A stretch of DNA of 64,000 bases from Flavobacteriales bacterium (GTDB taxonomy: Bacteria > Bacteroidota > Bacteroidia > UBA10329), in the NCBI GenBank assembly GCA_021739695.1, contig JAIPBM010000022.1, forward strand, positions 1-64,000. Direction: 5' to 3'. Below are positions 49,082-64,000 of the stretch, piece after piece (position 1 is the stretch's first letter; each line of letters starts with the position of its first letter). The notes under the pieces were generated by a model that was given only the letters and a program-made list of their open reading frames with translations, made no database searches and was not told where the DNA came from. The position numbers and the translations under genes were made by a program.

Positions 49082-52000
49082 ATGAAAACACCAGCCCCTT
49101 CCGCCCTAAGAATTGCCAGTCTTGCTTTCATCATCCTCGTACTGTTCGGATGTAAGGATAAAAGCAATGAACCTATTGATCCGGCATTTGCTGGATACAT
49201 CTCTGCATTTACCAGCGGAGTGGTAAGCAATAGCACAACCATTCAGATAAAACTAGCAGAGTCGCACCCCGATGCTGAGATCAACACGCGGATTGAAAAA
49301 GAACTGTTCGATTTCAGTCCGAATGTGGATGGTGAAGCGTTTTGGCTGGATAACCGAACCATTGAGTTTCGTCCGAAAGAGCGGTTGAAATCAGGCAAGG
49401 CGTATGAGGTGGAATTCGACCTCTACAAACTGGTTGACGTGCCGGAAAACCTGAAAACGTTGGTATTCCAGATTCAGGTGATGAAGCAATCGATGGCAGT
49501 GGCATTTGATGGAATGGAAGCCTACGATACCGACCTGAAATGGCAGATGATGCGCGGCTATGTGACCACCTACGATGTGGCTTTTGCAGATGATGTGGAA
49601 GCTTCGCTGGTGGCTTTGCAGAATGGCAAGGAACTCAGTCTGAGCTGGGAACATGAAGGTGGAGGTAAGCTGCATCGATTCATCATCGATAGCATTAGCA
49701 GAACGGAAGATCGCGGGCAAGTGATCTTACAGTGGAACGGAGAAAAACTTGGTTTTGAAGGAGAAGAGGAGCGAAGCTATGACATTCCGCCATTGGGAGA
49801 ATTCACGGTTTTGGATGTGAAAACCACTACACAGCCCGAGCAGATGATCACCATCTTCTTTTCCGATCCAATTAGTACGGAGATTGACCTCAATGGCCTG
49901 ATTTACCTAAGACCACAAGCTGATATTCGCTTGGTGCGCGAAGGAAATTCAGTAAAACTGTATCCTGTCAAACGCCTTATTGGTGACATCACACTTATTG
50001 TGACCGATGGCGTGCGCAACTCACTCAACTATCAATTGATGGCTGAATATCAGAAAAAGGTCAAGTTCACCAGCATCAAACCTTCGGTTGAATTGATTGG
50101 AAAAGGTGTTATTCTGCCAAGTTCTGATGGATTGACCTTCCCGTTCAAAGCGGTGAGTCTGAAGGCTGTAAATGTGCGTGTTCTCAGGATTTTTGAGAAC
50201 AATATGGCGCAGTTCTTTCAAGTAAATCAGTTTGATGGAACTGACGAAATGAAGCGCGTGGCCCGTCCGGTTTTCAATGGCGAAGTAGAACTCAAATCCG
50301 AAAAACCGATTGACTACGGCAGCTGGAACAATTTCTCCATCGACCTCTCGAAACTCATAAAGGCCGAACCCGGAGCGCTCTATCGCGTGCAGGTCAGTTT
50401 CACCAAAAAGCAATCGCTTTATCCTTGCGAAAGTGGCGGAACGAAGGAAGAGGATGAGGTTTGGGACGAGCCCGATTATGAGAATGAGTTTGATAGCCCA
50501 CCGCGCTGGGATTACTACGATGACGAAGATTATTATGATTATCGCCACTATAAATATGAAGACAGGGATAATCCGTGCTCGCAATCATACTATATGCGAG
50601 GCGATCGTTTTCCTGCCAGAAACTTCTTGGCATCCGACCTCGGAATCATTGCTAAAAGCGGCCGTGGCACGGATATGTTGGTGGCCGTTACCGACCTCAG
50701 AACTACCGATCCGATGTCGAATGTGGAAGTGGAGATTTACAACTTTCAACAACAATTGGTAGGGAGTTCTACTACCGATGGTGATGGTTTTGTAAAGATC
50801 GACCTGAAGCGAAAGCCTTATCTGCTTATTGCCAAAAAAGATGGACAGCGCGGTTATTTGCGCCTGGATGATGGTTCGGCCCTTTCCATGAGCATGTTCG
50901 ATATTGGTGGACAGCAGAATAAGAAAGGTGTCAAAGGATTCATTTATGGCGAGCGTGGCGTGTGGCGTCCGGGCGATTCGCTGTTCGTGTCCTTCATTTT
51001 GCAAGATGAGAACCACGTTCTACCCAAAGATCATCCGGTGGTTTTTGAGCTCTACACACCGCAACAACAGCTTTTTGAACGGAAAGTGCGCACCACTTCG
51101 ATCAATGGATTCTACGATTTCAGAACCTCAACAGCTGTAGATGCGCCAACTGGAAACTGGTTGGCGAAGATCAAAGTGGGTGGTTCCGAATTCACAAAGA
51201 CCATCAAAATAGAAACCATCAAACCGAATCGACTCAAGATCAAGATTGATTTTGGAAGTGAGATTCTGACCGATGTTGTGAAACCAAAAGGAACGCTTGA
51301 AGTGAAATGGCTGCATGGCGCCATTGCCGATAACCTGAAAGCGGATGTGGAATTGAACCTTACCAAAGGCTCAACAGTATTTGAAAAGTATCCTGATTAC
51401 ATCTTTGATGACCCTGCAAAAGACTTTGATGCGGAAGAGAAAATGGTGTTCGAAGGCAAGTTGGATGCTGATGGAAAAGCCACCGTTCAACCAGACATTC
51501 AGGTTGCGAAAAACGCACCCGGAATGCTGTCTGCCAATTTCAAGATACGTGCGTTTGAGCAAGGAGGCGATTTCTCAGTCGATCGGTTCAGCATGCCGTA
51601 TTCGCCTTATCGCGGATACGTTGGTTTGAAAGTGCCGCAGGGAGATGCTTGGAATGGCGCGCTCTATTCCAACGAGCCTAATCTGATACCGATCGTTACG
51701 GTGGATGAATTCGGAAAACCCGTTGATCGCAAAGGCGTTAAGATTGAGATTTTCGATGTGTATTGGAGATGGTGGTGGGAGCGTTCGTCTGAGAACGATC
51801 TGGCCCGATATGTAAGCAACTACAATCGTAATCTGGTGAAATCAGCCACCATCGACACCAAAAATGGGAAGGCGATCTACGAACTCAATTTAGGCGAGCG
51901 CCAATATGGTCGCAAGTTTATCCGTGTCACCGATCCGGTTACAGGCCACAGCGCAGGACAGACCTTTTATGTAACCTACAAAGGTTGGTGGAATGATGAT

Positions 52001-54682
52001 AGCGGCAACTCGCCCGGAGCTGCGGAGTTGCTCACCTTCAGCACCGACAAGAAAACATACGAAGTAGGCGAAAAGGTGAAGGTGAGCGTGCCGTCCGCCA
52101 AGCAAGGTCGCATCTTGGCCAGCATCGAATCGGGCAGTAAGATCATCAACGCTTTTTGGGTGGACCTGAAGAAAGGCGAGAACAGTTTTGAGTTGGAAAC
52201 AACCAAGGAAATGGCTCCGAACGTGTTCGTTCATCTGTCGCTTATTCAGCCTCATAAGAACGTGAAGAACGACCTTCCAATCCGTTTGTACGGCATTCAA
52301 CCCATTACGATTGAGAATCCGCAATCGCACCTCGACCCGATCATTACCATGCCAAACGAATTGGCGCCTGAGGCACCTTTCGAAGTGAAAGTGCGCGAAG
52401 GAATGGGTCGAAAAATGACCTACACCTTAGCCGTTGTAGATGAAGGATTGCTTGATCTTACGCGTTTCAAAACACCCGATCCATGGTCGCATTTCTACGC
52501 CAAGGAAGCGTTGAGCGTGAAAACGTGGGACATGTACCAATATGTGATTGGCACATTCTCAGGAGAAATGGCCGGATTGCTTGCCTTGGGTGGAGATGAA
52601 TACAGTCGGAAAAACGGTGGCGCCAAAGCCAATCGATTCAAACCTGTGGTAAAATTCATCGGTCCGTTTGTGGTGGAAGCCGGCAAAGAGAACGTGCACA
52701 AATTGGAGATGCCGAACTACGTTGGATCAGTGCGAACGATGGTTGTGGCTGGGCAGGGAAATGCTTACGGTTCTACTGAAAAGACAACGCCCGTCAAAAA
52801 ACCGTTGATGGTCATTGCTACCGTTCCGCGCGTGGTTGGCCCACAGGAAAAAGTGGACATTCCAGTAACTGTTTTTGCCATGGACGATAAGGTGAAGAAT
52901 GTGACGGTTACCATCGAAAGCAATGAGCTATTTCACATCAACGGGGAGAAATCCAAGACCATCAAATTCTCACGGGTTGGTGATGAAGTCGTGACCTTCA
53001 ACCTAAGCGTTGCCGAAAAACTTGGCATTGGAAAATTGAAAGTGGTTGCGAAAAGTGGTTCTGAACGTGCTGAATACGAGGTGGAATTGGACGTGCGAAC
53101 GCCTAATCCGCGTATTACAGAAGTGAAAGACGCCTTGCTCGAACCGGGTCAAAGTTGGGAAATTGATTATCTGCCAATTGGCATGGCCGGAACAAACAAA
53201 GGCGTGGTTGAACTTTCCAATATTCCATCGATGGATCTTGAAAAACGCTTGCAGTATCTGGTGCAATATCCGCATGGTTGCATCGAACAGACCACTTCAT
53301 CTGTTTTTCCCCAGTTGTTTCTGAGCAACCTGATGGAGCTTTCTCCAGAGCAGAAGCAGGAGATTGAGGACAACATCAAGGCTGGAATCAATCGTTTGCG
53401 CAACTTCCAGATCTATTCTGGCGGATTGTCTTATTGGCCAGGCGAAATGGATGAGGCGAGCGATTGGGGAACAAACTACGCAGGGCATTTCATGCTCGAA
53501 GCGAAAGCCAAAGGATATGATATGCCTCCAGGTTTCATCGAGAATTGGACGAAATTCCAGCAGCAACGCGCCAATAGTTGGACGGCCGATATGGATGGGC
53601 AGCACAACCATTACTATTCAAGGGGACAGCTCATTCAGGCGTACAGGCTTTACACGCTTGCCTTGGCAGGAACGCCTTCGCTAGGCGCGATGAACCGCAT
53701 GCGAACCATCAAAAATTTGGAAACAGCGGCACGATGGAGACTGGCTGTGGCCTATCAGTTGATCGGCAAGCAAAGCATTGCTGAGGGACTCATCGCAGGG
53801 CAATCAACGACCATCAAGTCCTACCGCGAATTGAGCTATTCGTATGGAAGTTCGGAGCGCGACCGTGCGATGATCTTGGAAGCGTTGACGATGCTTGACC
53901 GAAAAACCGATGCCAAGAAAATTTTGGATGAACTTACCACAGGTCTGTCCTCCAATAGTTGGTATAGCACGCAAACGACCGCGTATTCGCTTTTGGCCAT
54001 TTCCAAGTTCATTGGACAAACCGGTGGAGCGGCAAAGTCGCTCAAATTCAGCTATGTTTTGGGCAATTCCAAGCCAAAACAGCGCAATTCTGAGACAGCC
54101 ATTTCGCAGGTTGGTTTGCCGATGTCCGGAACCGAAGGCGGCCATTTCAAGGTTACGAACACGGGCACATCCACGCTGTTTGTGAAGATGATTTCGGAAG
54201 GAATTCCAGCGGCTGGAGATTTGACCAGTTCGGAACATGACCTGGTGATGAAAGTGCGCTACACCGATCTTAATTTCAAGGAAATCGACCCCAAGGTTTT
54301 GGAGCAAGGTTCCGACCTTATTGCGGAGGTTACGGTCACACATCCGGGTATAAGAAAGGATTACAGCGAGATGGCGCTCACGCAGATTTTTCCTTCAGGT
54401 TGGGAAATCCGCAACCTGCGGATGGATGAAGGCGAAAGCACCAAAGTGGCTGATGAACCAGAATATCAGGACATCCGTGACGACCGTGTGTACTCGTATT
54501 TCGACCTAAAGAAGAACGAAACCAAGACTTTCCGCATTCTGCTGAATGCCACGTATCTGGGCGAATTCTATCTACCAACGGTTGCATGCGAAGCGATGTA
54601 TGATAACGAGATCAACGCTCACAAGGCAGGGAAATGGGTGAAAGTGGTAGAGGCTGGTAATCCAACCTCGGAAGCAAAGTGA
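49082..54682 (+). CDS. Bacterial alpha-2-macroglobulin lipoprotein
   Basis: A protease trap of 1866 residues anchored by a lipobox ending LFGC (Cys24). It follows the plan of bacterial alpha-2-macroglobulins: N-terminal macroglobulin domains, a bait-like variable region, the MG10/thioester domain and a C-terminal receptor-like beta domain. The thioester motif is intact as C1400-I-E-Q1403 in YPHGCIEQTTS, so covalent trapping of proteases is expected. An acidic Asp/Tyr-rich stretch (about 455-500) looks like an insertion. pbpC follows 139 bp downstream, the same pairing as yfhM-pbpC of E. coli; the pair is thought to protect and repair the envelope after protease attack. Confidence 0.94.
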   Translation: MKTPAPSALRIASLAFIILVLFGCKDKSNEPIDPAFAGYISAFTSGVVSNSTTIQIKLAESHPDAEINTRIEKELFDFSPNVDGEAFWLDNRTIEFRPKERLKSGKAYEVEFDLYKLVDVPENLKTLVFQIQVMKQSMAVAFDGMEAYDTDLKWQMMRGYVTTYDVAFADDVEASLVALQNGKELSLSWEHEGGGKLHRFIIDSISRTEDRGQVILQWNGEKLGFEGEEERSYDIPPLGEFTVLDVKTTTQPEQMITIFFSDPISTEIDLNGLIYLRPQADIRLVREGNSVKLYPVKRLIGDITLIVTDGVRNSLNYQLMAEYQKKVKFTSIKPSVELIGKGVILPSSDGLTFPFKAVSLKAVNVRVLRIFENNMAQFFQVNQFDGTDEMKRVARPVFNGEVELKSEKPIDYGSWNNFSIDLSKLIKAEPGALYRVQVSFTKKQSLYPCESGGTKEEDEVWDEPDYENEFDSPPRWDYYDDEDYYDYRHYKYEDRDNPCSQSYYMRGDRFPARNFLASDLGIIAKSGRGTDMLVAVTDLRTTDPMSNVEVEIYNFQQQLVGSSTTDGDGFVKIDLKRKPYLLIAKKDGQRGYLRLDDGSALSMSMFDIGGQQNKKGVKGFIYGERGVWRPGDSLFVSFILQDENHVLPKDHPVVFELYTPQQQLFERKVRTTSINGFYDFRTSTAVDAPTGNWLAKIKVGGSEFTKTIKIETIKPNRLKIKIDFGSEILTDVVKPKGTLEVKWLHGAIADNLKADVELNLTKGSTVFEKYPDYIFDDPAKDFDAEEKMVFEGKLDADGKATVQPDIQVAKNAPGMLSANFKIRAFEQGGDFSVDRFSMPYSPYRGYVGLKVPQGDAWNGALYSNEPNLIPIVTVDEFGKPVDRKGVKIEIFDVYWRWWWERSSENDLARYVSNYNRNLVKSATIDTKNGKAIYELNLGERQYGRKFIRVTDPVTGHSAGQTFYVTYKGWWNDDSGNSPGAAELLTFSTDKKTYEVGEKVKVSVPSAKQGRILASIESGSKIINAFWVDLKKGENSFELETTKEMAPNVFVHLSLIQPHKNVKNDLPIRLYGIQPITIENPQSHLDPIITMPNELAPEAPFEVKVREGMGRKMTYTLAVVDEGLLDLTRFKTPDPWSHFYAKEALSVKTWDMYQYVIGTFSGEMAGLLALGGDEYSRKNGGAKANRFKPVVKFIGPFVVEAGKENVHKLEMPNYVGSVRTMVVAGQGNAYGSTEKTTPVKKPLMVIATVPRVVGPQEKVDIPVTVFAMDDKVKNVTVTIESNELFHINGEKSKTIKFSRVGDEVVTFNLSVAEKLGIGKLKVVAKSGSERAEYEVELDVRTPNPRITEVKDALLEPGQSWEIDYLPIGMAGTNKGVVELSNIPSMDLEKRLQYLVQYPHGCIEQTTSSVFPQLFLSNLMELSPEQKQEIEDNIKAGINRLRNFQIYSGGLSYWPGEMDEASDWGTNYAGHFMLEAKAKGYDMPPGFIENWTKFQQQRANSWTADMDGQHNHYYSRGQLIQAYRLYTLALAGTPSLGAMNRMRTIKNLETAARWRLAVAYQLIGKQSIAEGLIAGQSTTIKSYRELSYSYGSSERDRAMILEALTMLDRKTDAKKILDELTTGLSSNSWYSTQTTAYSLLAISKFIGQTGGAAKSLKFSYVLGNSKPKQRNSETAISQVGLPMSGTEGGHFKVTNTGTSTLFVKMISEGIPAAGDLTSSEHDLVMKVRYTDLNFKEIDPKVLEQGSDLIAEVTVTHPGIRKDYSEMALTQIFPSGWEIRNLRMDEGESTKVADEPEYQDIRDDRVYSYFDLKKNETKTFRILLNATYLGEFYLPTVACEAMYDNEINAHKAGKWVKVVEAGNPTSEAK

Positions 54683-54821
54683 TTGAAAGTGAAAATCCTC
54701 CGCTTTGCATCGGCACCTCTTTTAAGAAGGAGGAATCCGCCTTCCCCCTTTTAAAGGAGGTGGACTGAAAGTGAAGCTTGCGGAACATTTCAGGACGGGG
54801 GATTTTTGAGCTCAGGCAAAA
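54683..54821. repeat. Intergenic repeat-like segment between the macroglobulin gene and pbpC
   Basis: The 139 bp contain CCTCCGC / GGAGGAATCCGCC and CCTTTTAAAGGAGG motifs in inverted and direct order, plus TTGAAAGTGAA and CTGAAAGTGAAG at the two sides. Its style is that of short dispersed intergenic repeats; it has no ORF. Confidence 0.5.
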
Positions 54822-57146
54822 ATGAAAGAAGTTCTCTCATACAGGAAGAAATGGGTCATTGGAGGCACATTCCTCGGACTGGTCATCTGGTTCGCGGTGT
54901 GCCTTCCAAACCCGCTTTTCACTACGCCCACAAGTACAATCCTTGAAGATGAGAACGGGCGTTTGTTGGCTGGAAGAATTGCTTCGGACGGGCAATGGCG
55001 ATTTCCGAAATCAGACAGTTTGCCAGACAAATTCATCCAATCCATCCGCTATTTCGAGGACGAATATTTCTATCAGCATCCTGGATTCAACCCTGTTTCA
55101 TTCGGAAGGGCGATGAAGCAGAACATCAAAGCCAAGCATGTGGTGAGTGGCGGAAGTACGCTAACGATGCAGACCATTCGCCTTTCGCGTAAAGGGCAAT
55201 CGCGCAGCATATTTGAAAAGCTGATTGAAGTGATTCTAGCGGTTCGTTTAGAGATCAGGGAATCAAAAGATGAGATTCTGAAACTCTATGCTTCCAACGC
55301 GCCTTTCGGTGGGAATGTCGTTGGCTTGGATGCCGCAGCTTGGCGCTATTACGGCAGAAATCCATACCAACTTTCGTGGGGCGAAATGACCGTGCTGGCC
55401 GTGTTGCCCAATGCGCCATCGCTTGTTTATCCTGGAAAAAACAGCAACAAACTAAGGCAGAAGCGCAATCGGCTTTTGGACAAACTGAGAGAAAAGGGAG
55501 TGATTGATGCCGAAACCTGTGAGCTGGCCAAAGAAGAACCGTTGCCCGGAAAACCGCATTCCATGCCCAATACAGCGCCCCACTTGTTGAACCGTGTGAT
55601 GAAAGAAGGTCATACGGGAGAACGCGTCCGAACCACCATCAAACAGGCCTTGCAGGAAAACGTAAATCGGATTGTGAGTGATTATCATGGCGTGCTCAGT
55701 CAGAACGAAATTCACAACATGGCGGTGCTTGTTTTGAATGTGAGAACGGGCAAAGTAATGGCGTATGTTGGCAATAGTAATTGCCCCGATGAAGGTTCGG
55801 GACGAGCTGTGGATGTGATCACGGCACCCAGAAGCACAGGCAGCATCCTTAAACCATTCTTGTATACGTTCATGTTGCAGGATGGCGCACTCTTGCCGAA
55901 TCAGCTCATACCTGATATTCCAACGCGCATTGCGGGCTACGCGCCCAAGAATTTCGATCAGAACTATGACGGTGCCGTGCCTGCTGGAGAAGCATTGGCG
56001 CGGTCGCTCAATATTCCTGCGGTGAGGATGCTGCAAGATTATGGTTTAGAGCAATTCTATCATCAATTGCAAAAACTCCATTTTTCTACGATTTCAAGGC
56101 CAGCGGATCATTACGGGCTTTCAATCATTTTGGGCGGTGCTGAGGCCACGCTTTGGGATCTTGGCACTTCCTACATGAATATGGCCCGAACGCTTAATGG
56201 TCAAGAGAATCTGATTCAGTCAACGTTCGTTAGCAACGATTCTGTTCAAGTTCGAACGGATGGAGAAAACGTCTTCGATCCCGCAGCGTTGTGGTGGACA
56301 GTTCAGGCCATGTCAATGCTGAACCGACCTTCGCAGGAAATGGGTTGGCAGGAATTCGGTTCTTCGCAAAAAGTGGCGTGGAAAACAGGGACAAGTTTCG
56401 GCCATAGAGATGCATGGGCAATCGGTTTTACACCAGACCATTTGGTGGGCGTTTGGGTGGGAAATGCTGATGGCGAAGGTCGTCCGGGATTGACCGGTTT
56501 GAATGTAGCCGCTCCGGTCATGTTCAAGGTTTTTAAGCATTTACCGCGAGATGGATGGTTTGATGAACCGCAGATCAAAATGACAGGCGTGAATACCTGC
56601 AAACAATCGGGTTTTCTTGCAACGGCAAATTGTCCTGAGCAGCTTATCATTCATGTTCCGGGTAATGCCAATCGCGCGGAATCATGTCCTTATCACCAGA
56701 ACATTCATCTCGACAGCACATCGCAATACCGCGTGTCGAGCAGTTGCTATTCGGTTAGCGCTATGGTAAACAAACCGTGGTTCGTGCTTCCGCCCATTCA
56801 GGAATGGTATTATAAACGGAAGAACCCAACGTATCGTCCGCTTCCTCCATTTAGAAAAGACTGCTTGGTCAATGCCATTCAGAACATTGCGGTCATTTAT
56901 CCGAAGAATGGTTCGGGCATTTTCATTCCCAGAAACCTGAATGGTTCGTGGGAAAAGGTGGTTTTTGAAATTGCACATCGTCAGCCAGAGACGCTTGTCT
57001 ATTGGCATTTGGACAATGAGTTTATCGGCACAACCCAATTTGAACACAACCTCGAAGTAAGTGCTGCAGCAGGCCAACACACCATGACGGTAGTTGACGA
57101 AAAAGGCGAATCCGTGAGTTGGCGTTTTGAGGCGTTGGAGAAATAA
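54822..57146 (+). CDS. pbpC: Penicillin-binding protein 1C
   Basis: Bifunctional peptidoglycan synthase, 774 residues, anchored by an N-terminal TM (about 11-28). The glycosyltransferase domain shows EDEYFYQHPG (about 78-87) and GGSTLTMQTIRL. The transpeptidase domain has SILK with Ser341, SLN at 395-397 and KTGTS at 521-525, all intact. The C-terminal domain (about 690-774) is the immunoglobulin-like BiPBP_C type. In E. coli and others PBP1C sits next to an alpha-2-macroglobulin, as here. The convergent gene begins its 3' end 4 bp beyond the stop, and no terminator is visible. Confidence 0.94.
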   Translation: MKEVLSYRKKWVIGGTFLGLVIWFAVCLPNPLFTTPTSTILEDENGRLLAGRIASDGQWRFPKSDSLPDKFIQSIRYFEDEYFYQHPGFNPVSFGRAMKQNIKAKHVVSGGSTLTMQTIRLSRKGQSRSIFEKLIEVILAVRLEIRESKDEILKLYASNAPFGGNVVGLDAAAWRYYGRNPYQLSWGEMTVLAVLPNAPSLVYPGKNSNKLRQKRNRLLDKLREKGVIDAETCELAKEEPLPGKPHSMPNTAPHLLNRVMKEGHTGERVRTTIKQALQENVNRIVSDYHGVLSQNEIHNMAVLVLNVRTGKVMAYVGNSNCPDEGSGRAVDVITAPRSTGSILKPFLYTFMLQDGALLPNQLIPDIPTRIAGYAPKNFDQNYDGAVPAGEALARSLNIPAVRMLQDYGLEQFYHQLQKLHFSTISRPADHYGLSIILGGAEATLWDLGTSYMNMARTLNGQENLIQSTFVSNDSVQVRTDGENVFDPAALWWTVQAMSMLNRPSQEMGWQEFGSSQKVAWKTGTSFGHRDAWAIGFTPDHLVGVWVGNADGEGRPGLTGLNVAAPVMFKVFKHLPRDGWFDEPQIKMTGVNTCKQSGFLATANCPEQLIIHVPGNANRAESCPYHQNIHLDSTSQYRVSSSCYSVSAMVNKPWFVLPPIQEWYYKRKNPTYRPLPPFRKDCLVNAIQNIAVIYPKNGSGIFIPRNLNGSWEKVVFEIAHRQPETLVYWHLDNEFIGTTQFEHNLEVSAAAGQHTMTVVDEKGESVSWRFEALEK

Positions 57147-57150
57147 GGTT

Positions 57151-58746
57151 CTATTCCGAATCCCAATAACCCTTCATCTGCCTCTCAGCCTCTCGCAGCC
57201 AAGACTCTGAGTCCATAAGCGAATCCTGTGCTATCCAAGTTACTTTGCCGTATACGGCATCGGTCAGGCATATCTCTGGAATGCTTCCTCCGATGTACTC
57301 ACCTTCGTTCTTTCCTGCCCGTGACACGATGGTGCTCAGCCAAAAGAAACGCGTTTTGCCGTCAACATTACGAACGTACGGGCGAGATTCGGCCGGATAG
57401 TTCACCGACCAATCGTAGTTTTTCTTGCTCTCCACAATTTTGGCAGAAATGGCTCCGCTGCCGATGTACTTCTCGCTTCGGTGATTGATAAAATACACGG
57501 TGTGATCATTATCGCCCGGAATGAAAAGGCTCAAACTCAAACCCTTTTTGTTCTCCTCATAAGGTTCCATGCCAAAATAGTTGTAGAGTTTTCCTTCTCC
57601 TTTTATGGTGAAGTAAGTGATGAACGGCATCGGATTCTGATCACTTGCCACTTCAGGGATCCGCACATCACCTTCGTGATAACCGGGAAATGGAGCTAAA
57701 AATCCGTTGGCGAATTTGAAGCTATTGGCCGTGTAATTCAGCGCTTTAAAAGGCTGTAGGTTCTGTCCAACGAGATACTTGTGCTTGAGCAGTTCTTCTG
57801 GCGAAAGAAAATCTCCTTTTCCGAGAAAAACACGCTTCAAGTAGTTGTCGCTTCCACCTTCTTGCTGAATGACGTAAACACCTCCGAAAACAGGACGTGG
57901 AAAGAGAAAACCTTTCCATCTGACAATCGGAACCACTTGCACCCAATTACCGCTGTCGTCTTGCAGATAAAGTGGAGCCGCTGGCTCGCAGTTCAGGAAT
58001 TCATTCACCCCAAAACGTTTTACCACCGCATTCTCCGTTTTGTGGCTAAACAGTAACTGTTCGCCAATCTCGAAATTGACCTTTGCGCGATGCTTACTGT
58101 CAAAAACAGGTGATGGCAGATAAGCAGGAACATTCAGCACCTCGTACATGTGTTTGCTAAAGCGTTGAATCCAATAATTCGTTGCAGGCCCAACGGCAGC
58201 CGTGAAGTAATAGTTGCCATCAGCACCTTTTGTGAAACGTGGTTGCGTGGCATCTTCTGTCTCGCTCAGTGCTTCTTGGTTAATGAGTGTTCGAATGGAA
58301 TTTACAGGCTGAATCCGTTCGTGACCTGACACAGGAATTTCGCTCAATTCAACCTTATTCAAACTTGAATAATGGATGTAGAGGCTGAAGTAGTTGTGGA
58401 TATAAGGACCTGAAAAAAAGCTGAGCACCAGAAAAGCCACTAACAAAATAGAAGGAACGATGGCTCGTTTCCATGTTCGTTTTCGCACAAAAAGAATGAA
58501 AAGCCCGAACACCAAAAGAACCAGCACCACAAGAGCCAAATACTGGCGAATGGCAAGCAGAATCGGTTGAAACGTGGCGCGGTCGACAACGAGCGTGAAA
58601 AGCAATACGATCATGATGATGGCTACCCAAACTGGATGGCGTTTCATCCAAGCTTTTACACCGCTTCCGATTCTTGTTCTGAGGTTGAAGAAGAACCAAT
58701 AAACGTGGTTTTTTTCCTCGTCTGGAGTTTGAATCTGGTCAGTCAT
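57151..58746 (-). CDS. Membrane protein with large extracytoplasmic domain, unknown
   Basis: I do not recognise the family. The 531 residues start with about 40 cytoplasmic residues, then three TM helices (about 41-58, 66-88 and 94-112), then about 415 mixed alpha/beta residues predicted outside the cytoplasm. Conserved-looking stretches include VVPIVRWKGFLFPRPVFGGV, YFTIKGEGKLYNYFGMEPY and YIGGSIPEICLTDAVYGKVT. There is no enzymatic motif I can name. The gene is last in the AAA ATPase operon: its ATG overlaps the stop of the preceding gene by 8 bp, so translation is coupled. Confidence 0.8.
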   Translation of the reverse strand: MTDQIQTPDEEKNHVYWFFFNLRTRIGSGVKAWMKRHPVWVAIIMIVLLFTLVVDRATFQPILLAIRQYLALVVLVLLVFGLFILFVRKRTWKRAIVPSILLVAFLVLSFFSGPYIHNYFSLYIHYSSLNKVELSEIPVSGHERIQPVNSIRTLINQEALSETEDATQPRFTKGADGNYYFTAAVGPATNYWIQRFSKHMYEVLNVPAYLPSPVFDSKHRAKVNFEIGEQLLFSHKTENAVVKRFGVNEFLNCEPAAPLYLQDDSGNWVQVVPIVRWKGFLFPRPVFGGVYVIQQEGGSDNYLKRVFLGKGDFLSPEELLKHKYLVGQNLQPFKALNYTANSFKFANGFLAPFPGYHEGDVRIPEVASDQNPMPFITYFTIKGEGKLYNYFGMEPYEENKKGLSLSLFIPGDNDHTVYFINHRSEKYIGSGAISAKIVESKKNYDWSVNYPAESRPYVRNVDGKTRFFWLSTIVSRAGKNEGEYIGGSIPEICLTDAVYGKVTWIAQDSLMDSESWLREAERQMKGYWDSE

Positions 58747-59275
58747 TCACGTAGCCTTTTATGCCTTTTCGCCAATCGTCATCTTTCGGTTTGTCCTTCG
58801 CGCTATCCGCAGGTTTTTTGTCTGGTTCCCGTTCTTGTTTGATGGCTTCAATAGGTTTGGGCTTCTCTTCAATCTTGTTCACCCCAAGATCAGATTCCAT
58901 TTTATCGATCTGGTCGAGTTTGCTTTTCAGTTTGGATAGGTTGCTTGGCGCATGTCTAAAAATCAGCGGAGCAACATAGAATGCAACCATCAACCCAAGA
59001 GTGATGAACACACCATACAATAGTTGTATGAGAATATTGGCGCTACCAGTGAGAATGACAATGCCAGTGATGATGACTGCGAGAAAAATGGCGCTGTAAA
59101 GCTTTCCAGAGAATGGCTGTGCGTATACGAAGCCTTGTTCCAGGTCATCGGGCATCGGGTCTTTGTGGGTGAGTTTATACCAATTCCGATAACTCTTGGT
59201 CATGCTTTTGTAATCGAAGAAGTAGTAAACGATACCGGATGCCAGACCGATGAAAAAGGCGAGTAGCGTATCCAT
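58739..59275 (-). CDS. Small membrane protein with charged tail, unknown
   Basis: 178 residues. A hydrophobic N-terminal helix (about 3-20), two central TM helices (about 59-77 and 81-103), then a cytoplasmic tail with a short coiled-coil-like stretch (LSKLKSKLDQIDKMESDLG) and a Lys/Asp/Pro-rich end. It could be the docking partner that joins the ATPase to the membrane, but this is inference. Its ATG overlaps the stop of the upstream 423-residue gene by 1 bp (TAATG) and its end overlaps the next gene by 8 bp. Confidence 0.8.
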   Translation of the reverse strand: MDTLLAFFIGLASGIVYYFFDYKSMTKSYRNWYKLTHKDPMPDDLEQGFVYAQPFSGKLYSAIFLAVIITGIVILTGSANILIQLLYGVFITLGLMVAFYVAPLIFRHAPSNLSKLKSKLDQIDKMESDLGVNKIEEKPKPIEAIKQEREPDKKPADSAKDKPKDDDWRKGIKGYVND

Positions 59276-60546
59276 TATTTGATGAGTTTAGAGTAAATGC
59301 CTCGGTGTTTTAAGATACTATTGATAGCCCATTCTTTCATGGGTTCTTTCCAAGTTTGATAATCGTGGTAAAATGCAGTCTTATCAAAAGCAAACTGAAG
59401 AACAGGATTGTTGTTCTGAATTTTTGAGATAAGATGCCAGAGCACCCGCTTCTGTTCAGGGCTTGTTCGAGTGTGTGGCTGGAGCATAAACTGATTCAGA
59501 TTCTCTGAGATCTTCGGCTTTTCCTGCCCACCATTGATCAACTTATTGACCACCTTTTCGAGTTCGAAATAGCGATCATCTAACAGTTTCGCTTTCTCCA
59601 ATTTGCTTATCAGTCCTTTACGCTGCGTGGGCGTCATCTGACCCACCGGAATAGTATCATCCAACTCCATGGCTGCTGAAACGATCATATGCTCCAACTG
59701 TAGTTCCAACAGTTCAATATGTTCCTGAAAGAAATCGGTTTCGCTATCTAAAAGATCTAAGTTGTAGAGGTAGGGAATGAAACTCAAATCCTTCATATTG
59801 AACTCTACATGCAAATGCCCGCTGTCTCCACTCAGCTGTGAAGCATCATCTTCGAAAATCATGATCGGCTTGCCACCCATCACCTTTTTGAACACGAAAA
59901 CACCGTTGAACGCCAAGGTGTAAAAAGCTGTGATATTCGAGAACGGAAAGTCTGGCAACTCCAAATTCCGATAGCGCAGGTCGCCATGCTTTTTGCTGCT
60001 TTCAATGATTGCCTCGCGCAATTTCGAGTTCATCCAAGCTCGCGGATCGTTCATGTATCGGTTGACAAGTGCCTTTTGTTCGGCAGCAGCCGCGGCCAAA
60101 TCGCCCGCCACGTTGAACTTCAAATTCACCACTTCCATCATCAACAGATCTTGTGGCGTGCGATACGAACTGATGTTCTGGTCGAGTTCAAACCAGATGG
60201 CATTCAGCGAGGTGATGTCCTCAATTTGCAACGCATAATTCTCAAAAACACGCCTGTGAATTTCCCAATCGAAGGTGTGGTATGGCATGTACACTGGACA
60301 ATCCTTCTGATCGGGCGAAATGATGATGGCAAATGGGTTGGCAACACCGTGAGAAAGATAAAATCGATCGTCCTTTTCTCTTGCTATTTCAGGACTCCAA
60401 CCCCAACCATCAACATGAAACTGATTGAGCTCGGTAGGCGCTATTCCGATGTCTTCCAAACATCGATTGTACCGCTTCTGCATCAGCGTATTGTCGATGT
60501 AATACAGCCGATCGCCAAACAGTTTTGATTCGCTGAGCTTAATCAT
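59275..60546 (-). CDS. Soluble protein of unknown function, ATPase partner candidate
   Basis: 423 residues, no signal peptide and no TM. I cannot assign a family. The N-terminal half is mixed (FHVDGWGWSPEIA near 44-56, VYMPYHTFDWEIHRRVFENY near 85-104). The centre contains an Ala-rich helix (LAAAAAEQKALVNRYMN) and the C-terminal half is mostly helical. No metal or nucleotide-binding motif is obvious. Its start overlaps the AAA ATPase stop by 8 bp, so the two are made together and probably act together. Confidence 0.8.
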   Translation of the reverse strand: MIKLSESKLFGDRLYYIDNTLMQKRYNRCLEDIGIAPTELNQFHVDGWGWSPEIAREKDDRFYLSHGVANPFAIIISPDQKDCPVYMPYHTFDWEIHRRVFENYALQIEDITSLNAIWFELDQNISSYRTPQDLLMMEVVNLKFNVAGDLAAAAAEQKALVNRYMNDPRAWMNSKLREAIIESSKKHGDLRYRNLELPDFPFSNITAFYTLAFNGVFVFKKVMGGKPIMIFEDDASQLSGDSGHLHVEFNMKDLSFIPYLYNLDLLDSETDFFQEHIELLELQLEHMIVSAAMELDDTIPVGQMTPTQRKGLISKLEKAKLLDDRYFELEKVVNKLINGGQEKPKISENLNQFMLQPHTRTSPEQKRVLWHLISKIQNNNPVLQFAFDKTAFYHDYQTWKEPMKEWAINSILKHRGIYSKLIK

Positions 60547-62500
60547 GGATCTGCCCTTTGCTTGCCAGATCTCGGGCTTCTCCTTGGATGAAAAGTCGCT
60601 TGGCAGCTTCTTTTATCTCGCGGTTGATGCCCGTTTCGTTAATACGGATGGAAGTTTCCACGTAATTCAATGCTTCGTACAATCGTAGTTGCGAGAAATT
60701 CGAATCTTTCAGATTTTCCTTCATCAACACTTTCAGCATGTCCACTTTGGTGTCGTATGCTTTTCGGAAGAACTCATCTGGCTTTTCCCACCAGATCTCT
60801 GGTAGGTCAAAGTCGATAACGCGCGCGTCTACCGCTTTCTGAATGTTTCGCAGATCGCGTGATGAGAAGAACGGATACTTCCGTTGAATGGCCGCGTAGA
60901 AATCTCCGAAGAAATCGTGCGAATGCACACCAGCACTTGCCATTGTTTCATCGAAAATGGCCTTCACATCCTCATTCGTGAAGGTGTAATTATGGTCAAG
61001 CAGTTCGTTCAGCGATTCCGCTCGTTTCTGACTTGCCATGTAATCGTATCCACTCGGTGGAGGTGAGTTCACAAAGCCACTTTCCAGCTTTTCATATTTG
61101 CGCCACCACAGGTAATCCTGATCGATAAAATCCTTGTCGGTGCCCGCTCCATCCATTTTCACACGCATCTGAATTCGCGATAGCACCGCCTTATCAATCT
61201 GATCGGGAATGTTGGTGAAAAGGCTGATCAAACGGTTGCCGTAATTGACCGCATAAGCACCTTCCGTGTTTCTCAAGAAAACTCCGATAAACTCACGCAC
61301 ACCGGCCGAAACACCCTGACGCGTGCGTTCCTCCAAGTTATTCTCAGCATCATCAATCGGAGCGAAAATGATCTTGCTTGGGTCTTGCATCGGCTTGAAC
61401 CATTCCATGGCGCGTTCTGCCGTTCCGCCTTGGTATGTGGAAACGATGTTCTCTGGCAACGGCCAAAAAAGAAAGTCGTACCCGAGCATATCGCAACGCT
61501 CTTTAAGCAAGGTTGCCGTGGCGGCAATCAGCATGCTTTTCCCCGTTCCGGGCTTTCCATCAGCCATGGTCACATTGGGCAAACCGCCTAATTCGTTCAG
61601 CGGATTCCGCTTCGTTTCCATGTCGTAGCAAAGCAAGCGTTCAGCATAGCGCTTAAAAAGATGCTTTGCTTCCTTGTTGGCCACAATGTCTTCCATCTTG
61701 GTAGGATTGAACGCCATGCCAACCGTAACATTGGTCGACATCGTTTCAAAACCTTGCACCACAAACTCGGTCTTTTCCAGTTTGTAATGATTGTCGGTAA
61801 ACAGGTCAACGTACTTGAAACCGTCTTTTCTGAGCTTCAATTCTTCGCTCAAACGCTCAAAATATAGCTGACTGATCTTGAGGAAATGAAGATCCTGATT
61901 CACTACGCCCGAACGCTCCAAGTACGCGCCATAATAATAAAGCGAGCATTGAATAGCCTTGGAAGGACGGTTCAGGTTTACTTCTGGAATGCCGTTGAAA
62001 TCGATGTTGATGGATGAGACTTCATCTGCCCGATGATCGCGAAGCCCATACAGAATGTAGTTTGCTGCTACCATCAGTAAAATGGCCGCCTGCGTTTGCG
62101 ATTTATCATGAAACTCGGGTAGCTCCGATTGATGCAGACTTCCGTCACGGTTCTTCTGCATCAACAGTTCCAGACCTGATGCGCGTTCATATTGCTTGGC
62201 GATGTATTTACCGATGCAATAACCTTTCTTCAGCGCGTTCAGAATGACATTCGAAGTATTGGAAAGAATGATGCGATCATTACTGATACGGATGGCGCTT
62301 TTGATGATGGAAAGCTCATCCGTTTCGTTGATGTTCAAGGCTTTTCCTGCCTGAATGAGAAACGATAGATCGATATCGCCTTTGGCCTTTTTCACGTCAG
62401 TAATCCAGCCAACGCTTTTCAAATACGTGGTTATTTCTTCCTTGAACTCTTCAAGGTATTCTTCTTTGATTATCAGTAAGGATGAATCTGTTTTTTCCAT
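60539..62500 (-). CDS. AAA+ ATPase of an uncharacterised operon
   Basis: 653 residues without leader or TM. The first 300 residues are mainly helical and of unknown fold. The AAA+ core follows: Walker A GKPGTGKS (315-322), Walker B IIFAPIDD (377-384), where the usual catalytic Glu position reads Asp, a sensor-1-like Asn430 in SLFTN, and arginine-finger candidates R442/R446 in SRIQMRVKMD. The C-terminal 200 residues are helical. The motif spacing fits a classical AAA remodelling ATPase rather than an ABC or helicase protein. It is in the centre of a six-gene operon with two membrane proteins, which suggests a membrane-linked protein-remodelling role. Confidence 0.85.
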   Translation of the reverse strand: MEKTDSSLLIIKEEYLEEFKEEITTYLKSVGWITDVKKAKGDIDLSFLIQAGKALNINETDELSIIKSAIRISNDRIILSNTSNVILNALKKGYCIGKYIAKQYERASGLELLMQKNRDGSLHQSELPEFHDKSQTQAAILLMVAANYILYGLRDHRADEVSSINIDFNGIPEVNLNRPSKAIQCSLYYYGAYLERSGVVNQDLHFLKISQLYFERLSEELKLRKDGFKYVDLFTDNHYKLEKTEFVVQGFETMSTNVTVGMAFNPTKMEDIVANKEAKHLFKRYAERLLCYDMETKRNPLNELGGLPNVTMADGKPGTGKSMLIAATATLLKERCDMLGYDFLFWPLPENIVSTYQGGTAERAMEWFKPMQDPSKIIFAPIDDAENNLEERTRQGVSAGVREFIGVFLRNTEGAYAVNYGNRLISLFTNIPDQIDKAVLSRIQMRVKMDGAGTDKDFIDQDYLWWRKYEKLESGFVNSPPPSGYDYMASQKRAESLNELLDHNYTFTNEDVKAIFDETMASAGVHSHDFFGDFYAAIQRKYPFFSSRDLRNIQKAVDARVIDFDLPEIWWEKPDEFFRKAYDTKVDMLKVLMKENLKDSNFSQLRLYEALNYVETSIRINETGINREIKEAAKRLFIQGEARDLASKGQIHD

Positions 62501-62508
62501 CTAGATTT

Positions 62509-63135
62509 TCAGTTTGCCTTAAGGAGTTGATCTGTCCATAATGTATAAACCGATCCAATTGGTTTATACTGGTCATTCAATGGAAAAGCCAAGCGGATCT
62601 TATCCATAAAATCGATTAGTTGCCAATCCTCATTGTTGTAGGTGTCGTTTGGGTAGGCTTTTGTTGGTTCTTTGCCCCATTCCCACCTGACCAAATAATT
62701 ACTTACATCTTGCGCTTTAAGCTTTGGAATCAACTCAGCCAACAATTGTGGATTTCCCTTCTGAGCAGTAATTTCTTCTTCAGAGACATTCTCATCCCAG
62801 TAATCCGGTATAGGAATGAACTGATCTACTTGATCACCTCGGTTGTAAAGTACATACATCCAAAAATCTCCATCATGGATATGGAAGGAGAAAACCGGGC
62901 AATTTAGTTGCTGGGAAATGTATTGTGAGCAGGAGTCCCATTCAACAAACCCCATGGGATAAACAACGGCAGTTCCATTTTCACCTTCATGGATTATACA
63001 AGTGTTTTCTTTCAGATCATTATCTACTTGCTGTTCAAGTCCGCCAGACTTTGATTCGGCATAATCTCTTACGCAAGACACAACTTCTTCGGTAGTTCGA
63101 CCAATTACGCCTGACATTGACAAAAACATTCCCAT
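62509..63135 (-). CDS. Soluble protein of unknown function (208 aa)
   Basis: I do not recognise a characterised family. The protein starts MGMFLSMSGVIGRTTEEVV (the second Met is an alternative start) and shows VVYPMGFVEWDSCSQYIS, VFSFHIHDGDFWMYVLYN, a FIPIPDYWDE loop and a C-terminal WQLIDFMDKIRLAFP helix. It is acidic and lacks a leader or TM, so cytoplasmic. The composition and size are like small sensor or immunity-type proteins, but no evidence supports either. It lies 8 bp upstream of the ATPase gene and 11 bp after the next gene. Confidence 0.78.
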   Translation of the reverse strand: MGMFLSMSGVIGRTTEEVVSCVRDYAESKSGGLEQQVDNDLKENTCIIHEGENGTAVVYPMGFVEWDSCSQYISQQLNCPVFSFHIHDGDFWMYVLYNRGDQVDQFIPIPDYWDENVSEEEITAQKGNPQLLAELIPKLKAQDVSNYLVRWEWGKEPTKAYPNDTYNNEDWQLIDFMDKIRLAFPLNDQYKPIGSVYTLWTDQLLKAN

Positions 63136-63146
63136 GGCAAGTGATT

Positions 63147-63998
63147 CTAGTTATCGTGATAAATGTATGGCGGCACCACCAATTCATTGAGCGCCTCTGG
63201 ATGATATTCGCTCAGATATTGCCACACTCCGTGGCTGGTAATGCTGTATTTGTTCAACTTGGAGATCATCTTCTCCATGCATTCCTTGTTCGACTCATCG
63301 ATGTAAAAGATCTGTCGCAACTCACCTTTGGTCAGGAAGCTTTCTTTGCGTTGCTGCCCAACGGAAAAGATCACTTCCGCATCATATCGAAAGATGAAAT
63401 CGCTGTAGTCGAATCGCTTCTTCAGCATTTTTGAAAATGGATGTTCGTCCTGCGAATACTCGCCATAGATCGGCCCGATGGCGATGCGTTTCAGCACTTT
63501 CGGCATCATCAACTCGCTGAGCGAATCGATGTCGGAGATCATCACTTTCAGCGGAGCCGTATTGTGTGTGATCTTGCGGATGCTTTCCACAAAACCGTAG
63601 CTGCGCAATGCCTTTTCTGCTTCGGCATCTTCGCGGTGATGGTCGAACACCAGCATGTAGATGTATGGGCGATTGGTGACACTATCGAACGAGCCCCAAC
63701 TGTAGAGGTAACGCCAATTGAAATCGGCACCTTTTGATAGCAACTCCAGCGGCCCAGAAGTGAATTCCTTGAACAGTTTCCAGGTATCAAGCGTTTCGAA
63801 ATAAGTGCGCTTGCTGATCTGTTTGAGCAAGCGAACGGGTTCGGTTTTGCTACGGATCATGTGATCCAAGATCAAGGTGCGCAGCGTATCCACCGACTGG
63901 CCATCTTTCAACTCCTCGGCCTGTTTGGTAAGGTCGTCTGCCAAGCGTCTGAACTCCATGTGATTCGGGAATCCCGACTCTGTAAGATCCACCAACAT
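63147..63998 (-). CDS. Unknown protein, possibly cut by the window edge
   Basis: At least 283 residues. The frame is open to the right edge: the first Met lies 2 bp from the end and may not be the true start. No leader or TM is seen. The sequence is helical at first (RRLADDLTKQAEELKDG), then alpha/beta (YLYSWGSFDSVTNRPYIYML, APLKVMISDIDSLSELMM). The last 80 residues (FLTKGELRQIFYIDES, LNKYSITSHGVWQYLSEYHP) look like a winged-helix-type module. It is co-directional with the ATPase operon, 11 bp before the next gene, and is probably its first known member in view. Confidence 0.72.
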   Translation of the reverse strand: MLVDLTESGFPNHMEFRRLADDLTKQAEELKDGQSVDTLRTLILDHMIRSKTEPVRLLKQISKRTYFETLDTWKLFKEFTSGPLELLSKGADFNWRYLYSWGSFDSVTNRPYIYMLVFDHHREDAEAEKALRSYGFVESIRKITHNTAPLKVMISDIDSLSELMMPKVLKRIAIGPIYGEYSQDEHPFSKMLKKRFDYSDFIFRYDAEVIFSVGQQRKESFLTKGELRQIFYIDESNKECMEKMISKLNKYSITSHGVWQYLSEYHPEALNELVVPPYIYHDN

Positions 63999-64000
63999 CG

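Follow-up and report, generated by a model that had tools for sequence, protein, structure and literature searches.

A conserved six-gene Bacteroidota operon that may encode an AAA+ machine acting on a coiled-coil protein at the cytoplasmic membrane

The window analyzed here, positions 1-64000 of a 70,929-base Flavobacteriales contig (C22; JAIPBM010000022.1), closes with a run of genes that all lie on the minus strand (Table 1). The initial annotation had placed six ORFs here, and their positions, strand and spacing are confirmed: from P1 to P6, successive genes are separated by -8, -1, -8, +8 and +11 bp, with P2 sharing 8 bp with P1 and 1 bp with P3. As that annotation also proposed, we read on past position 64000, which completed P6 and revealed two further genes, with gaps of 18 bp between P6 and P7 and 92 bp between P7 and P8; the operon runs beyond the window edge. 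On its other side, the end of P1 lies 4 bp from the end of a convergent penicillin-binding-protein-like gene. The stretch from 49082 to 57146 carries a gene for an 1866-aa alpha-2-macroglobulin-like protein followed by one for a 774-aa penicillin-binding-protein-1C-like protein (both named by eye from sequence), convergent with the operon.

Table 1. Genes of the operon and its immediate surroundings in the source genome; positions are those of the window unless marked as contig positions.
Gene	Description	Position	Strand	Basis
P1	531-aa membrane protein, last operon gene	57151..58746	-	ORF
P2	178-aa membrane protein, charged cytoplasmic-type tail	58739..59275	-	ORF
P3	423-aa soluble protein, DUF6638 (PF20343), proposed adaptor	59275..60546	-	Pfam
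P4	653-aa classical AAA ATPase, proposed threading motor	60539..62500	-	Pfam AAA
P5	208-aa protein, non-core insertion separating P6 from P4	62509..63135	-	ORF
P6	364-aa protein, proposed adaptor; window holds the C-terminal part (283-aa ORF)	63147..64000, gene to contig 64241	-	full ORF
P7	proposed client, 456 aa, helical/coiled-coil; first gene of the core	contig 64260-65630	-	ORF past window
P8	247-aa protein with two TM segments, probably non-core	contig 65723-66466	-	ORF past window

Comparison with other genomes redraws the boundaries of this gene set. P5, an acidic protein that had been counted as a member, has no homologue in 19 relatives, including the operon-bearing sister genome (G008), and no match at any other operon locus examined; it is an insertion confined to the source genome and stands outside the conserved unit. 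P8 is common only to the source and sister genomes. The conserved unit is P7-P6-P4-P3-P2-P1, that is, a helical protein, a second soluble protein, an AAA+ ATPase, a DUF6638 protein, a small membrane protein, and a membrane protein with three transmembrane segments and a predicted periplasmic domain.

These six genes almost certainly form one system, as their behavior across the Bacteroidota indicates. A search with P4 of 84,980 species genomes returned 26 loci, nearly all of which carry close relatives of the adjoining genes where the contig is long enough. Among 299 Flavobacteriaceae genomes, P4 was found in 87 (about 30% of those sampled), as a single copy in each, and all six genes occur in identical order and strand in 39 of the 40 Flavobacteriaceae loci fetched. 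The incomplete locus belongs to a genome (G911) in which P1 lies about 0.85 Mb from P7-P6-P4 on the same chromosome. In another (G945) the operon is split, with P7-P6-P4-P3 and P2-P1 on separate contigs. Since both split operons retain their pieces within the genome, we count them as support for a single system. The co-occurrence test suggested in the initial annotation points the same way: P1 and P4 are both present in 75 of the 78 genomes that have either, counted over genome handles up to G1062, the range with listed matches in both samples, and among 395 genomes of the phylum, the five in which P3 was detected were also the five in which P4 was.

Two loci carry P1 in genomes where no P4 was detected, one with the other operon genes absent (G973:C4:175262-176896) and one with only P2 alongside (G977:C52:14163-15803); these may be relics, or P1 may be used separately there. 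In 19 of the 40 Flavobacteriaceae loci (e.g. L101:7402-7989), P4 and P3 are separated by a gene for a NUDIX hydrolase, a recurrent passenger and not a universal one. One further locus (L009; CATLPG010000082.1) is titled Saccharospirillaceae, a gammaproteobacterial family. We rejected this placement; the title is probably wrong, because a phylum search centered on its genome returned the same Bacteroidota loci.

The gene content of the unit is the same in at least three distinct chromosomal neighborhoods, in which the adjoining gene resembles ABC-F or acyl-CoA dehydrogenase, or the operon lies beside a TraB/ferrochelatase-like pair (identities assigned by eye from sequence). Among the six proteins, pairwise distances are correlated at 0.80-0.94, which fits common and mostly vertical descent. 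Between the source and sister genomes, pS is 0.66-0.84 (near saturation) and pN is 0.07-0.14, indicating purifying selection on all six genes. Within the source genus the distribution is patchy, with the operon in two of nine genomes.

The core of the system extends well beyond the Bacteroidota. Using tblastn against plasmid records, we found full-length relatives of P4 in Vibrio, on replicons of about 0.9 Mb, and in rhizobia, on large replicons such as pSymB. All seven of the Vibrio and rhizobial loci examined contain P7-P6-P4-P3 in the same order, each gene confirmed by profile, and the order of this four-gene cytoplasmic core is thus conserved from Bacteroidota to Gamma- and Alphaproteobacteria. 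No homologues of P1 or P2 were detected at these loci. A DUF2333 membrane protein follows P3 in three of the four rhizobial loci, and no obvious membrane partner adjoins the core in the Vibrio loci. Taken together, the invariant core order and the rhizobial DUF2333 protein imply a core of four soluble proteins whose membrane partner depends on the lineage: P2 and P1 in Bacteroidota, DUF2333 in most of the rhizobia examined.

The initial annotation was right to place a real AAA+ ATPase, P4, at the center of a co-conserved set. P4 matches Pfam AAA above the cut-off (E=4.5e-9), and its motifs mark it as a classical AAA ATPase with a complete ATPase site: Walker A (GxPGTGK[ST]), Walker B, a sensor-1 Asn, arginines after sensor 1, and an aromatic pore loop of the form aromatic-Q-G, present in 22 of 22 homologues from three lineages. 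Aromatic pore loops of this kind grip polypeptides. Profile matches to the core include VAT/Cdc48, Rpt4, Vps4 and Pch2, with VAT/Cdc48 and Rpt4 scoring above Vps4. The N-terminal domain of about 290 aa gave no match, and Pfam detected no MIT domain. Throughout the homologues of alignment A8, Walker B has an invariant DD where DE is usual; the catalytic glutamate is thus replaced, which is unusual, and the replacement has been kept across phyla.

P7, first in order, is the most conserved member of the operon. It has no transmembrane segment, and its model is all-helical at low confidence (pLDDT 65, pTM 0.42). The signature L[KT]xDT[ED]xRx3Y occurs in 22 of 22 homologues from all lineages. In Bacteroidota, P7 also has a low-complexity linker followed by a conserved acidic-hydrophobic C-terminal tail (DDLL/NDLM), which is absent from Vibrio or rhizobial P7; this tail could plausibly serve as a docking or threading end. 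Several identities for P7 were considered and rejected. TelA, suggested by eye, shares with P7 an elongated helical soluble form and a similar length, and differs in showing no profile similarity (no PF05816 Pfam match; hhalign probability 0.1%). Foldseek and VIA-align comparisons of the low-confidence model returned F-BAR proteins, alpha-pore-forming toxins and SMC/MukB arms, with Z scores in the helical-bundle range and many unrelated bundles at similar Z; we regard these as generic helical bundles and did not retain F-BAR or toxin assignments. Genome-wide searches found no TelA in the source genome (G000) and one among 39 relatives, and no PspA gene in the source genome and two among the 39. 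Common coiled-coil envelope systems are, therefore, rare in this neighborhood.

The remaining proteins are mostly new to the libraries; among the operon proteins, the Pfam/NCBIfam-type libraries used recognized only the AAA core and DUF6638. P3 is a clear DUF6638 member (PF20343; E=4e-36, 125 bits against a cut-off of 27), with membership evident in all three lineages; this is a family of unknown function, with no mention in the open-licence literature searched, and no solved structural relative of P3 was found. For P6, an AF2 model of a homologue (L006; pLDDT 81) shows a helical N-terminal half followed by a sheet of two strands, two helices and two strands. The solved structures that rank best against the model are T-fold enzymes (uricase, DHNA, PTPS, GTP cyclohydrolase), a weak hint of such a fold in the C-terminal half at Z of about 5, below the trust threshold. 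The winged-helix-like end that had been read into this protein is not borne out, as the model ends in a long-stranded sheet and not in a wHTH. P3 and P6 are not homologous to one another.

Two membrane proteins had been recognized from the start, and both stand. P1 has transmembrane-like segments at residues 34-66, 67-92 and 93-118 and a large conserved domain of about 400 aa that is predicted to be periplasmic; it has no Pfam, NCBIfam or PDB relative. P2 has two to three transmembrane-like segments and no relative of known function.

How might these parts work together? We start from four findings: the set is conserved, P4 has an intact ATPase site, P7 is helical, and P1 and P2 have membrane segments. 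From these we infer interactions among the proteins, polymerization of P7 and a physiological role. In the reading we favor, with a probability of roughly 45%, the operon encodes a machine at the cytoplasmic membrane whose AAA+ motor threads P7 assemblies or takes them apart, following a logic like that of Vps4 and ESCRT-III with unrelated parts. P7 would form assemblies on the cytoplasmic membrane, at its inner face, both P7 polymerization and P7 membrane binding being putative, and a P4 hexamer would thread these assemblies so that they are pulled apart or recycled. P6 and P3 may be the adaptors through which P7 is recruited or selected, and P1 and P2 could tether the machine and link it to the periplasm, a task that might fall to DUF2333 in rhizobia. 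We consider it an even chance that P4 acts on P7, and only tentatively do we assign the system a role in cell-envelope maintenance or remodeling. Weighed against the main reading are the low confidence of the P7 model and its lack of a convincing fold match, the tail that is not universal, the DD form of Walker B in P4, and the lack of an obvious membrane partner in Vibrio. A broader claim, that this is an independently evolved counterpart of ESCRT-III/Vps4 in Bacteroidota and Pseudomonadota, in which an AAA+ motor disassembles a non-homologous coiled-coil polymer and lineage-specific transmembrane modules reach into the periplasm, is one we hold to be doubtful.

The strongest alternative, and still a rather unlikely one, is that P4 works with P6 and P3 as an unfoldase or insertase in the maturation of a single envelope complex containing P1 and P2, in the manner of MoxR/VWA or Bcs1-type systems; P7 would then be a scaffold or tether and not a substrate. 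The presence of P1 and P2 in almost all genomes with the core, the large conserved periplasmic domain of P1 and the classical AAA core of P4 would all suit such an assembly chaperone. Against it, the Vibrio and rhizobial cores come without a detected P1 or P2 homologue at the locus, and hence P1/P2 cannot be the universal client.

It could also be asked whether the system belongs to the ESCRT-III/PspA family proper, with P7 as a divergent Vipp1/PspA/Snf7 protein and P4 as a bacterial Vps4. Like Vps4/ESCRT-III and archaeal CdvBC, the operon joins a classical AAA ATPase bearing an aromatic pore loop to a protein that is long and helical and to partners in the membrane, and the source genome, in which no PspA gene was found, also speaks for this reading. 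Associations of PspA or Snf7 with AAA+ ATPases have, moreover, been described in bacteria, and the bacterial PspA operons with AAA+ genes in that survey likewise join a coiled-coil protein to an AAA+ ATPase and membrane proteins (Ravi et al., 2024; PMC11237479). The details are less favorable. P7 has no match to Pfam PspA_IM30 or Snf7 at E values up to 1, and we rejected it as a PspA on an hhalign probability of 0.3-0.6%, compared with 98% for a P7-P7 positive control; nor is P7 an ESCRT-III protein by profile. In profile comparisons of the AAA core, P4 is no nearer to Vps4 than to Cdc48/Rpt4, and the domain at its N-terminus is a different one. The operon contains no PspA, Snf7, band-7, beta-propeller AAA or CesT-like gene, and the AAA+ associations described in that survey are others than the P7-P6-P4-P3-P2-P1 set (PMC11237479). 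A survey of ESCRT systems, in addition, reports that ESCRT components have no bacterial homologues (PMC10936438). Membership in this family is, in our view, improbable.

Similarly improbable is a role in stress-related or regulated proteolysis, in which P4 would unfold substrates for a protease whose gene lies elsewhere. An AAA core like those of Cdc48/Rpt/FtsH-type unfoldases, with its aromatic pore loop, is consistent with this idea, and the absence of any protease gene from the conserved unit counts against it.

Finally, the initial annotation raised the possibility of a defense system. We consider an anti-phage system built around the AAA+ ATPase highly improbable, since the Flavobacteriaceae copies are single per genome and mostly in recurrent chromosomal contexts, the genes are under strong purifying selection with uniform content and no effector domain, and there are no full-length viral or phage homologues (a virus search gave AAA-core matches only with the P4 alignment, A8, and none with alignment A2). 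PADLOC matches the generic AAA core only (IetA) and yields no multi-gene system; the IetA match (E=7e-7 for Vibrio P4) is confined to the ATPase core. IetAS includes a subtilisin-like partner, which is absent here. In favor of defense are the patchy occurrence in the source genus and, in the source genome only, a pair of genes resembling PD-T4-9 that lies, with a serine recombinase, 3-6 kb upstream. This pair, at contig C22 68632-69815 (L004:11633-12816), about 3 kb upstream of the operon, comprises PD-T4-9_C (E=5e-40) and weak PD-T4-9_A matches in PADLOC; a serine-recombinase-like gene (L004:10979-11593) adjoins it, a small defense or mobile patch in the source genome. A housekeeping or envelope role fits better than defense.

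We found no description of this operon in the open-licence literature searched. Its parts are nearly all unannotated, and it would be a widespread machine, carried by about 30% of the sampled Flavobacteriaceae genomes and by large Vibrio and rhizobial replicons. The operon gives five unassigned protein families a common context. With culturable carriers such as Cellulophaga, Muriicola, Ulvibacter and Sinorhizobium, the idea that P4 works on P7 assemblies at the membrane is directly testable. If the reading of P4 as a motor and P7 as a filament is true, ATP-driven remodeling of coiled-coil assemblies at membranes would have been invented more than once.
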